Shown: piece by piece, positions 30,694-33,659 of the stretch
Layout: every line of letters starts with the position of its first letter
How positions within the stretch are numbered: the first letter of the stretch is position 1
DNA from: a virus
Virus record (IMG/VR): IMGVR_UViG_3300042463_000409
Span: 1 to 64,000 of that record
DNA: 64,000 bases
Direction: 5' to 3' (one strand)
Program-made: the position numbers and the translations under genes
The notes under the pieces: model-generated
The model's database searches: none
The model's input: only the letters and a program-made list of their open reading frames with translations
Told to the model about the DNA's origin: nothing

Positions 30694-30821
30694 TTTTTTA
30701 ATAGTTTTTTGAAGAATGAATAAATAAGGCTAACCATTATGTATCCGTAGATGCCCATAAAGATTAGAAACAGGATCGCCTGGGTATACATTGCCCACGA
30801 CATTTGACTAGCTGATGGCAT
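30690..30821 (-). CDS. tiny membrane protein
   Basis: 43 residues from ATG 30821: SQMSWAMYTQAILFLIFMGI, YGYIMVSLIYSFF, then KKLLKK. Its stop overlaps the next start (ATGA) and its start overlaps the previous gene's end. Confidence 0.45.
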   Translation of the reverse strand: MPSASQMSWAMYTQAILFLIFMGIYGYIMVSLIYSFFKKLLKK

Positions 30822-30996
30822 AATCATTGAATTTAAATTGTGATTGAATTTCTATTAATTTGAACTTTTGCCTAGCTTTATTTTGCGCCTCTGTTTTAGA
30901 GTCACCTAATAACACTAACTTTTTAACTATTCTGTCATAAACAGAAATGCGTGTGCGGACTCTCGGTCCGTTACTTGAATAGACTTTTGTTGCCAT
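30808..30996 (-). CDS. small basic protein
   Basis: 62 residues, basic: KVYSSNGPRVRTRISVYDRI, VKKLVLLGDSKTEAQNKAR, KFKLIEIQSQF. Last gene before the 546-base non-coding stretch. Function unknown. Confidence 0.55.
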   Translation of the reverse strand: MATKVYSSNGPRVRTRISVYDRIVKKLVLLGDSKTEAQNKARQKFKLIEIQSQFKFNDYAIS

Positions 30997-31542
30997 TTGA
31001 AAAGATTAAATTGGTTAATGAAATTGATTCGCTGAAAGGCGGGGGTGCGACCCCCCTTAGCCGAGCTCCTTTCAATGTATAAAATCACGACATGACAATG
31101 CCGTGCAGATCTTCGCTATCGCGTATGTATGTAATATTAAAATGGCTCGAATGGAGCCGATGATAGTTTTGCTGTGTCTCTATTAGCTATGCACGATATA
31201 GGCAGCGGAGACGTACCCGCTTAATCTATTTTTATTTAGTTTATACTCCCGACCCTAAATTGCCCAAAATAGAACTAAAAAGGGAGTCAATGCAATTAAT
31301 TTAATGCTCCGCGTGTTACACGTTGCAAGGTTTTCAGTATTTCAATGAACTTATCATTTTAATATTTAGGGCCTCTATTTTGTAGGCGTTGCGCCCCGAA
31401 AATTTCGGCAATTAGCATTGCGCTAATTTATACCTAACTATTGCACTCCACTATGATAATACTTTGCGGAGCATATTTGAAGGCGTGTAAATATTCGATA
31501 TTTTCGCGCGTCTATTTTCAACGCGCTAACACGCCCAACGTA
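30997..31542 (-). ncRNA. hairpin-rich non-coding region (candidate large RNA), strand uncertain
   Basis: No convincing ORF. Pairs found: TGAAAGG 31033-31039/CCTTTCA 31068-31074 enclosing GGGGGT/ACCCCC; GGCTC/GAGCC 31144-31158; ACTCCC 31245-31250/GGGAGT 31282-31287; CCCTAAAT 31253-31260/ATTTAGGG 31364-31371; ATGCTCCGC 31304-31312/GCGGAGCAT 31466-31474; GGCG/CGCC 31385-31395; AATTAGC/GCTAATT 31410-31428; GGCGTGT/ACACGCC and GCGCGT/ACGCGC nested at 31482-31535. It is visibly richer in GCG/CGC than the rest. Strand follows the neighbouring genes only; the helices fit either strand. Confidence 0.45.
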
Positions 31543-31932
31543 TTATGCTTTTTTGTAGTAGCGGCTAATTAGCTGCATGATAAGCCACACGCTAAAATTT
31601 GGGCGCGCTGCCTCCTTTTCGCTGCGTAATGGCAATAGATTTTTAGGCGTTAAATCTGCCTCGTTATAGGCTGCGAAGCCTTCTAAAAAGCCGCTATTGA
31701 ATTGTAAAACCCTATTTTTGCAGTATGAAAACGACCCCGCGTCTACTTTATGCGCTTTGTTAGTGTCTATTTTCGCGCTTTGCAAGGCTTTTCCTGTGAT
31801 ACCTTCGGCAAGGTAGGTGATTTTGGGTTTTAACACTTTTTTAACGTTTGACAGTTTTTCGGCTTTTGCAGTTTTTAGTGCTTTTGCTTTGCTTACTTTT
31901 GGGGTTGCGTTTGTTGTTGTTGCGTTGTTCAT
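31543..31932 (-). CDS. unknown protein of foreign-looking composition
   Basis: 129 residues from ATG 31932 (an upstream ATG at 31965 would add 11). An Ala/Lys/Thr-rich disordered start (MNNATTTNATPKVSKAKALK) precedes a compact domain (ITYLAEGITGKALQSAK, GSFSYCKNRVLQFNSGF, AARPNFSVWLIMQLISRYY). Codons use GCG, CGC and CGT freely, unlike neighbours. The hairpin-rich stretch lies directly downstream, so gene plus RNA may have come in together. Function unknown. Confidence 0.5.
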   Translation of the reverse strand: MNNATTTNATPKVSKAKALKTAKAEKLSNVKKVLKPKITYLAEGITGKALQSAKIDTNKAHKVDAGSFSYCKNRVLQFNSGFLEGFAAYNEADLTPKNLLPLRSEKEAARPNFSVWLIMQLISRYYKKA

Positions 31933-32249
31933 TTTTTTAAGTTTTATGTTATGTCTTATTGACAATGTAAAAGTAAATAGCCATATGTTAAAATGGTGTT
32001 ATCGGGTAGTTAAACAAATGTTAAATACCAAAAATTAAAAGTTTGTTCTTTTTGCTAATATATTTAGTATTAGTTTTTTTATTTATATAAGTTAATTGTA
32101 ATATGTTGTTAGGGTATGGAGGAGGTATCCTGAATTTGCAACAACGTTGCATATTTTTTTAATTGTAATATATCCGCGTGAAATATAACAAAAAATTTAT
32201 ATAAGTAATTTTAGTAATATGTTTGAAAAGTTGAGGCACTCAGTAGCAG

Positions 32250-32280
32250 GATCCTGGTTTCCCACCGGATCGTTTTTTTT
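32250..32280 (+). terminator. rightward rho-independent terminator in the control region
   Basis: GATCC-(T bulge)-GG pairs with CC-GGATC (32250-32271), loop TTTCCCA, followed by G and eight Ts (32273-32280). It has no upstream rightward gene, suggesting that a short RNA from the control region ends here. Confidence 0.5.
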
Positions 32281-32397
32281 CCTGGGCTAGGGGTACCCTT
32301 TTACGACCACACATCTCCCATTTTTCTCAACTATACGCACGTCCTATATATCCATATATATATAAATCCTCTACAACTCAATGGTATCAACAAATCG

Positions 32398-32483
32398 TGT
32401 TCACTATTTTGAACAAAATATGCACCATTTGTTCAATAAAATGAACATTTGCAGTAAAATTAATTTGTTCAATAAAATGAACA
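32398..32483. promoter_or_regulatory. three palindromic operators
   Basis: TGTTCA-N6-TGAACA occurs exactly three times: 32398-32415, 32430-32447 and 32466-32483. The arms are identical; copies 2 and 3 also share the spacer ATAAAA. Centre-to-centre spacing is 32 and 36 bases. The third overlaps the -33 TTTG of the promoter before the winged-helix gene, so binding there should block transcription. The likely binder is the protein at 32524-33030 or another regulator. Confidence 0.8.
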
Positions 32484-32495
32484 TTGGTATCTTGC
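32464..32495 (+). promoter_or_regulatory. promoter overlapped by operator 3
   Basis: TTTG (32464-32467), 20 bases, TATCTTGC (32488-32495), a near match to TAnnTTTG; 29 bases before the ATG at 32524. Confidence 0.45.
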
Positions 32496-32523
32496 ATGAC
32501 CAATAACAGCCAAAAAACAACCA

Positions 32524-33030
32524 ATGAAACTTAAAGATTATCCTGTTTACAATTACAACCCTTTTAGGGTGAATGGAGATTATTTCAGAAGTATACCCAC
32601 TCAGAAGGAGAAAGTCGTTTCCGACACGGGTGAGGTACTCAGGGACGAGAAGGAGTACAAGGTAGCCGATTTGCAGAGCCACGTCCGTATATACGAGGAT
32701 ATGTATGATTTACTATTTACTATGAGTCCTGCAGGTGTAATGATACTTGCCAATATCTTTAAACAGATGCCAAAGAACGGGGACTCTGTATTACTCAATG
32801 TACAGCAGATAGCTAGTGAACTGAACATAGGCAGTAGAAATACTGTTTATAAGGGTATTATAGAGCTTATGGACAAGAAGGTTATAGCCAAGGGTGTAGG
32901 TGCAGATATATACTATATAAACCCTGACTATGTGTATAAGGGTTCAAGGTCTGCGTGGTTTGAGAAGTACAAGGATTTTGATAAATGCAACAATGTTGCA
33001 ACTATAAGAACTTATGTAAATAACAGGTAA
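32524..33030 (+). CDS. winged-helix replication/regulatory protein (RepL-like)
   Basis: 168 residues. The middle and end look like a winged helix: VMILANIFKQMPK, SVLLNVQQIASELNIG, SRNTVYKGIIELMDKKVIAKG and GADIYYINPDYVYKGSRSAW. This layout resembles RepL-type plasmid proteins and phage MarR-like regulators. Its three upstream palindromes and divergent position suggest it binds there, regulating itself and perhaps replication start. A DNA-binding role is fairly secure; initiator versus repressor is not. Confidence 0.6.
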   Translation: MKLKDYPVYNYNPFRVNGDYFRSIPTQKEKVVSDTGEVLRDEKEYKVADLQSHVRIYEDMYDLLFTMSPAGVMILANIFKQMPKNGDSVLLNVQQIASELNIGSRNTVYKGIIELMDKKVIAKGVGADIYYINPDYVYKGSRSAWFEKYKDFDKCNNVATIRTYVNNR

Positions 33031-33035
33031 ATTTG
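33028..33035 (+). promoter_or_regulatory. TAAATTTG promoter -7 box
   Basis: TAAATTTG just after the previous gene's end, 3 bases before the chosen ATG at 33039, so probably used for a leaderless or very short leader transcript; a weak case. Confidence 0.25.
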
Positions 33036-33038
33036 CGT

Positions 33039-33659
33039 ATGAAGTATGATATCCCTAAAGAGTTCAGACCTTTTGTAAATAGCGTTAAAAGACAATGCAG
33101 GGATTACAAGGTAGATTTAGTTCTATCTCCCTCACGAAAGGTCGTTGTAACAGATGATTTTGAAACAGAGTGTGGCGGGTATTTTGATGGTGATAACAGG
33201 GACCTAGTGGTTGCCTGTGGTAAGCCATTCGATAAGTGGATAGAAATACTTGTACACGAGTCTTCTCATATGGATCAGTGGAAGAGTGACGATAGATGGG
33301 ATAAGTGGGGTGTATCGTGCAGTAATATGTGGGCGTGGTTATCCAAGGAAAAGATTATGAATAAGACCCAGGTGTCCAAGATGCTAGACGATATGATTGA
33401 GCTAGAGAAGGATTGTGAGATGAGGTCTGTTGAAAAGATAAAGAAGTGGGGGTTACCTATCAACATACCAAAGTATATCCAAAGGGCTAATGTATACTTA
33501 TACAGCTATGGTATGATGAATGACCTTCAGAAGTTCCCTACAGATATATACTCGGATGATAAGCTAGTTGCTATGGCATCAACTACATTCAAGAAAAGCT
33601 ATAAGAAAGTACCAGAAAATATATCAAATCACATGCTTCGTTTTTATTCAAAAAAGTAA
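33039..33659 (+). CDS. HExxH metallopeptidase-like protein
   Basis: 206 residues from ATG 33039 (an upstream TTG at 33033 is less likely). The core EILVHESSHMDQW (His73, Glu74, His77) is a zinc-protease site, and Glu residues in DDMIELEKDCEMRSVE (~120) could be the third ligand. Similar small HExxH proteins are known from Bacteroidetes phages but their substrates are not. It lies next to the winged-helix protein. Confidence 0.7.
   Translation: MKYDIPKEFRPFVNSVKRQCRDYKVDLVLSPSRKVVVTDDFETECGGYFDGDNRDLVVACGKPFDKWIEILVHESSHMDQWKSDDRWDKWGVSCSNMWAWLSKEKIMNKTQVSKMLDDMIELEKDCEMRSVEKIKKWGLPINIPKYIQRANVYLYSYGMMNDLQKFPTDIYSDDKLVAMASTTFKKSYKKVPENISNHMLRFYSKK

Follow-up and report, generated by a model that had tools for sequence, protein, structure and literature searches.

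A large structured RNA with a boxA-like site in an uncultured lineage of phages distantly related to phages of Bacteroidota

Genes around the gap at 30997-31542

The window, the whole stretch of 64,000 nucleotides analysed here, is part of a phage record of 68,132 bases. Close relatives of its large terminase are encoded in 50 viral loci, which in part overlap other contigs of the set. The identity of this terminase to those of Cellulophaga phi18:3, Flavobacterium 'elemo', and similar phages is only 28-32%, implying that the phage represents an uncultured lineage with a distant relationship to phages of Bacteroidota. Genes lie on the minus strand left of ~32 kb and on the plus strand right of it. 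Two of the minus-strand genes, 30808-30996 and 31543-31932, flank a gap of 546 bases (30997-31542). A sequence-only reading had described this gap as lacking a convincing gene and as dense in inverted repeats. Inspection of the open reading frames agrees with the former, and the latter is also borne out. The visibly different base composition that it had reported does not hold, as the G+C content is 0.39 in the gap and 0.33-0.41 in the neighbourhood. The strand skew falls to about zero in the gap.

The gene at 31543-31932 (minus strand) encodes a protein of 129 amino acids, and its stop codon adjoins the RNA described below. According to the alignment (A7) and the AlphaFold2 model, the N-terminus is lysine-rich, basic, and predicted to be disordered, and the C-terminal domain is all-helical (pLDDT ~95 for residues 50-129). 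No relative of this protein was found in Pfam or PHROGs, in fold searches of PDB and BFVD, or among 50,697 phage records. In two related loci, L042 and L044, the upstream protein looks different or unrelated, yet the 5' domain of the RNA is kept. The 129-aa protein could be a partner of the RNA, but because the upstream protein of L042 and L044 is a different-looking one, this partnership is offered as a suggestion only.

In the search for promoters, sigma-70-type sequences were found at chance frequency, and none of the Bacteroidota type (TTG/TAnnTTTG) was found on the minus strand. The divergent region upstream of the gene 32524-33030 includes three near-identical palindromes, TGTTCA-N6-TGAACA (32398-32415, 32430-32447, and 32466-32483), which are likely operator sites and are mostly kept in the related loci L001 and L002. 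The gene 32524-33030, near the RNA and the divergent promoter region, is RepL/HTH-like (RepL in Pfam with E 0.005, below the cut-off). It is followed at 33033-33659 by a conserved putative metallopeptidase gene (Pfam DUF6782, E 6e-6, just below the cut-off), which is a good marker gene of this group of phages.

A conserved structured RNA on the minus strand

Most of the gap is found again in L001 and L002, with identities of 92% and 83%, respectively, and structured gaps at the syntenic place are found in many other relatives. The folding energy of the gap is modestly below that of shuffled sequences (z-scores of -2.03 for the minus and -1.72 for the plus strand), which is weak evidence if taken alone. 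The gap is accepted as a real structured RNA because it is conserved in relatives and its local hairpins covary. A profile search of related loci recovered the first 60-75 nt of the RNA in L011, L044, L042, and L016, with stems changed on both sides. It is as good as certain that the minus strand of 30997-31542 encodes a conserved structured RNA. We infer that this RNA extends from just past the stop codon of the 31543-31932 gene up to a terminal hairpin (31034-31542, minus strand), a length of ~500 nt. It sits at the head of the long minus-strand gene block.

The 5' end of the RNA is a three-way junction (31480-31536), in which P1 (8 bp) encloses P2 (6 bp, with the 9-nt loop UGAAAAUAG in the window) and P3 (6 bp, with the loop CGA). 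Covariation in the junction was counted on 10 sequences and then on 12, with L073, a possible distant member, excluded. In the 12 sequences, 98.8% of 240 cells are paired and double-sided changes are found in 17 of the 20 pairs. The covariation score is 1.027, compared with 0.257 +/- 0.033 for shuffled sequences, and with slid partners it does not exceed 0.279. On the minus strand, seven of the 240 cells form G-U pairs, whose plus-strand counterparts would be A-C mismatches. Since these cells fit the minus strand and the flanking genes are also on that strand, the RNA is assigned to the minus sense. The covariation check that the sequence-only reading had proposed was thus run on homologues, and covariation is present.

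The junction is followed by the hairpin P4 (31445-31472; 7 bp, 31466-31472 with 31445-31451), which is 100% paired in all six sequences compared and has double changes in six of its seven pairs. Next is the multi-branch region P5 (31383-31436), in which 31433-31436 pair with 31383-31386 and enclose P5a and a second hairpin. P5 is paired in every sequence and nearly invariant, and P5a has double changes in two of four pairs. Further along the RNA are a boxA-like site (31335-31350), a core hairpin motif, AAGCGGGTACGTCTCCGCTG (31203-31222), and the hairpin CTATATCGTGCATAG (31187-31201). A terminator-like hairpin, CACGGCATTGTCATGTCGTG + ATTTTATA (31086-31105), is kept in L001 and L002. The terminal hairpin GAAAGGAGCTCGGCTAAGGGGGGTCGCACCCCCGCCTTTC (31034-31073) is near-identical in these two loci and is found at the position where other relatives have a 3' terminator. 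The part of the RNA 3' of boxA aligns poorly between groups of relatives.

Two long-range pairs had been taken as signs of a folded domain, and neither is supported. The pair 31304/31466 (GCGGAGC/GCTCCGC) is disrupted in both L001 and L002, and its 31466 arm is part of the conserved local hairpin P4. The pair 31253/31364 (CCCTAAAT/ATTTAGGG) is disrupted in one of these relatives and unchanged in the other, so that compensatory support is absent.

R1, a covariance model made for the junction, finds the members used to build it with E 5e-21 to 7e-17; its match in the window (E 4.5e-20) is that of a sequence of the training set. Outside the training set, R1 finds three contigs, G065 (E 5.4e-16), G100 (7.7e-10), and G102 (1.6e-18). 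In G065 and G100 the junction starts 12-13 nt past the upstream gene. In the relatives checked, the stop codon of the upstream gene is ~1-13 nt ahead of P1.

Members of the RNA family

The relatives can be divided into several groups. Group A consists of the window, L001, and L002, group A' of L058-L060 and L223, and group C of L042 and L044, while L011, L016, L054, L352, and L353 are single members. By virtue of the junction, it is well supported that all of these belong to one family. Group B (L033-L036, L051, L057, L061, and L118) has an RNA in the equivalent position, following a homologue of the 31543-31932 gene, with a 5' part that looks different from that of the other groups. Its position, its upstream gene, and a common motif suggest that group B belongs to the same family. 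This motif, AAGCGGGTWCR-N4-CGCTG (AAGCGGATACG in group A'), is followed by a hairpin and TAATA and is common to most groups. The core hairpin of the window is shared with group B, L011, and L016, and one base differs in L058, L060, and L223. The hairpin after the core motif has an equivalent in group B that covaries (GCTATCAAATAGC / CCGTCAAGCGG). The 3' domain of group B also covaries by itself, with double changes in 13 of 57 predicted pairs.

Searches outside these loci were mostly negative. No DNA match was found among the 50,697 phage records. R1 has no match in Cellulophaga phi18:3, Flavobacterium elemoE, and MW202828, which are isolate or assembled relatives, or in 295 Bacteroidota-class genomes, a search that had no positive control. 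A pattern scan with AAGCGGGTWCRNNNNCGCTG gave mostly unrelated matches, and only those with flanking similarity were kept. Near matches to the conserved-looking motif CAAAACTATCATCG in the window are not above chance. A very distant relative may be present in L073 (E 0.004). The region L073:1-350 (minus strand) has the 20-mer core motif and TAATAGAGA in common with the window, as well as a boxA-like site. This region ends in a fold that resembles a tRNA, having acceptor, D-like, and T arms, and ARAGORN makes no call on it.

A boxA-like site of the Bacteroidota rRNA type

The boxA-like site of the window RNA, GTTCATTGAAATACTG (31335-31350, minus strand), is found ~190 nt from the RNA 5' end and matches the Bacteroidota boxA at 15 of 16 positions. 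In relatives, similar sites are found ~145-195 nt from P1, for example GTTCTTTGAAATACTA in L002, TTTCTTTGACATATTT in L054, and GTTTTTTGAAATATTG in L352. Five members of group B (L033, L034, L036, L061, and L118) carry CTTTGACATATTG or CATTGACATATTG. Six of the 14 members scored match boxA at no fewer than 13 of the 16 positions, and these six sites are 159-192 nt from P1. The fit in the remaining scored members is at the level of shuffled sequences, and in most of them a similar position is all that identifies the site. The site is weak or unrecognisable in L016, L059, and L223, and none was seen in L035, L051, and L057. An additional boxA (GTTCTTTGAAATATTG) is found in the minus-strand operon leader of three group B loci, upstream of the homologue of the 31543-31932 gene (L170:5757, L171:5796, and L177:5848, minus strand).

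The type of this site was derived from bacterial genomes. Four copies of the string TTCTTTGACATATTG are present in a set of 60 genomes from one Bacteroidota order, and three of the four are in the 16S-23S spacer, just 5' of the 23S rRNA. The variants GTTCWTTGACATAYTG are found at this spacer position in further genomes. From its location, the spacer site is judged to be the rRNA boxA. The rRNA boxA is the binding site of NusB-S10 and is necessary and sufficient for formation of the antitermination complex in E. coli (PMC10250234). Such elements also precede long noncoding RNAs and CRISPR arrays (PMC7862264).

When IMG/VR was scanned for exact GTTCTTTGAMATATTG, at least 81 matches in at least 80 loci (L228-L307) were obtained. 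Among the matches listed, 43 of 81 are intergenic, though the intergenic share of the sequence is only 20%. Among these 43 intergenic matches listed, a tRNA gene on the same strand starts at most 400 nt downstream in 22 cases, compared with 1403 of 9600 random intergenic positions, and within 20 nt in 14 cases, compared with 172 of 9600. The boxA is often 9-14 nt upstream of the tRNA gene in the matches listed. This enrichment implies that boxA is used ahead of stable RNAs in viral contigs, and it is consistent with a boxA that protects the window RNA. It also suggests that Bacteroidota phages may drive their tRNA arrays by rRNA-type antitermination, borrowing the host rRNA transcription machinery for stable RNAs of their own.

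Different modules at the 3' end

The 3' end of the RNA differs among relatives. In L042, L044, L054, L058-L060, and L353 it is closed by an intrinsic terminator, a G+C hairpin with a U tract. In group B the end is a minihelix, in which an acceptor-like stem and a T-arm-like hairpin are present without D or anticodon arms. The acceptor-like stem changes in concert (GTATAGG/CCTATAC, GCATAGG/CCTATGC, and GCGTAGG/CCTACGC), and the T-arm-like loop is TTCGACT or TTCAACT. ARAGORN makes no tRNA call on this minihelix. A second copy of the minihelix is found at L035:2523-2581, and several group B homologues of the 31543-31932 gene also terminate in hairpins with TTCRAYT loops. In two other loci, twister-P1 matches follow the last hairpin (L352:1586-1643, E 4.5e-7; L348:2118-2171, E 9.3e-7, L348 being the L016 contig). 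Both are below the Rfam gathering score and keep all core nucleotides (UAA..GUCCCAAG..UAAA..GAGGG). By eye, the equivalent place in L011 and L054 resembles degenerate versions of twister. The last hairpin of the window (31034-31073) has no clear U tract and no ribozyme or tRNA-like match, and release of a separate RNA from the window would be by analogy with its relatives.

Possible roles of the RNA

The best reading of these results, and a fairly probable one, is that the gap encodes a large phage RNA that is protected by boxA, processed separately, and active in trans. The divergent promoter region (31933-32523) would drive transcription of the RNA together with the gene of the basic protein at an early stage of infection. 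The boxA would load host NusB and S10, and RNA polymerase would then cross the untranslated Rho-sensitive stretch, as in rRNA operons. The RNA would fold while it emerges and would either be cleaved off the mRNA that follows or terminate at its 3' hairpin. The resulting stable RNA would act in trans, either by itself or together with the basic protein. If GOLLD and ROOL are a guide, its role may be that of an abundant structural RNA.

Since the RNA is located inside an operon, a role in cis is also possible. The main rival, which we consider unlikely yet well worth keeping in view, is a leader or antitermination element like lambda nut or HK022 put, in which the folded RNA and boxA modify RNA polymerase for readthrough into the minus-strand early operon and the RNA has no separate life. 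This would agree with its place at the head of a long gene block, with the known function of boxA as an antitermination signal (PMC10250234), with the intrinsic terminator at the RNA 3' end of several relatives, and with the further boxA in the operon leader of L170, L171, and L177. However, the RNA is much larger and more ornate than known nut and put elements, and a twister or tRNA-like 3' end would detach it from the downstream message, which is needless for a pure cis element. In addition, boxA elsewhere in viral contigs precedes tRNAs, that is, stable RNAs, among the matches listed. The RNA might instead be a 3' UTR element of the 31543-31932 gene, bound by the product of that gene for autoregulation or stabilisation of its mRNA. 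The stop codon that adjoins P1 in the relatives checked and the lysine-rich N-terminus of the protein fit this idea, but L042 and L044 retain the RNA 5' domain beside a different-looking protein, and several hundred structured nucleotides with a boxA exceed what autoregulation needs, making it improbable.

Two further explanations deny that an RNA is at work. A structured DNA element, such as a replication origin or a recognition site, is suggested by the nearby RepL-like gene (Pfam E 0.005, below the cut-off) and divergent promoter region. It is very improbable, as only one strand retains the G-U pairs, the loops are conserved in an RNA-like manner, and boxA, terminators, and twister are RNA-level signals. 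The idea of a decayed gene with chance hairpins, named by the sequence-only reading as what would refute an RNA, drew on the position of the gap between genes and on the modest first-look z-scores of the fold. A protein relic was not seen, and compensatory double changes in 17 of 20 pairs cannot come from decayed coding sequence. This explanation is refuted by the covariation and is left with next to no probability.

If the RNA does act in trans, a more specific proposal can be made, which we regard as quite possible without calling it probable. The family may be an undescribed class of large trans-acting RNA of Bacteroidota phages, with rRNA-type boxA antitermination, 3' release by interchangeable modules (terminator, tRNA-like minihelix, or twister), and possibly an RNA-only or RNA-protein particle like the cages of GOLLD and ROOL. 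The family is a separate one, with good covariation and with one conserved upstream gene in most members. Because it has a clear link to host factors (boxA, hence NusB-S10), its production, partners, and oligomeric state are directly testable.

Comparison with known RNAs

GOLLD and ROOL are often found near tRNA genes (PMC12286853). The functions of phage RNAs of this type are unknown, and how common cages are among large natural RNAs is an open question (PMC12286853). The cage of ROOL is a homo-oligomeric RNA nanocage. The sequence-only reading had proposed a large RNA comparable to these two. The large structured RNA stands, on the strength of the covariation and of syntenic gaps with the same elements in many related phages, while assignment to the GOLLD or ROOL type is not supported by Rfam. 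In the 64-kb window all Rfam families stay below their gathering scores, no large-RNA family is found in 30900-32600 at E <= 10, and no GOLLD or ROOL is found in the relatives. The covariance models of GOLLD, which represents its universally conserved 3' domain, and of ROOL are both unmatched in the window and the relatives, so the RNA cannot be recognised as a GOLLD or ROOL. The GOLLD-type neighbourhood was also considered; the genome is that of a phage, but the 64-kb window has no tRNA gene. A tRNA or tmRNA was rejected as well, with no match by ARAGORN or Rfam.

Like GOLLD and ROOL, the window RNA is several hundred nucleotides long, ornate, phage-encoded, and intergenic, with many local hairpins, and the tRNA-like or T-arm 3' ends of its relatives recall the proximity of those RNAs to tRNA genes. 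Unlike them, it has no Rfam match, lies in a window that lacks tRNA genes, is preceded by a conserved protein gene, and carries a Bacteroidota boxA. Another long phage RNA is that of Vibrio phage ICP1, which is ~800 nt long, has no ORF, and is the most abundant transcript of the phage; its authors liken its length to GOLLD and ROOL (PMC7567579). It resembles the window RNA in being long, phage-encoded, and ORF-less, a likeness by description only; host and phage differ.

With respect to boxA, GTTCWTTGAMATAYTG matches the Bacteroidota 16S-23S spacer boxA and is in this respect like the NusB-S10 sites of rRNA and tRNA operons. The phage site differs in being inside a structured RNA, ~190 nt from its 5' end, and not ahead of rRNA. 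HK022 put and lambda nut are short elements at the start of early phage operons and have a structured RNA, a boxA, or both. For nut, see also PMC10250234. The window RNA likewise is a structured RNA with boxA at the head of an operon, but it is ~500 nt long and its relatives have 3'-end modules of their own. By analogy with rRNA and CRISPR arrays (PMC7862264), the phage boxA may protect a long untranslated RNA. Judged by these comparisons, the window RNA is a new family of an RNA kind already known, and boxA together with exchangeable 3'-end modules is its unusual combination.
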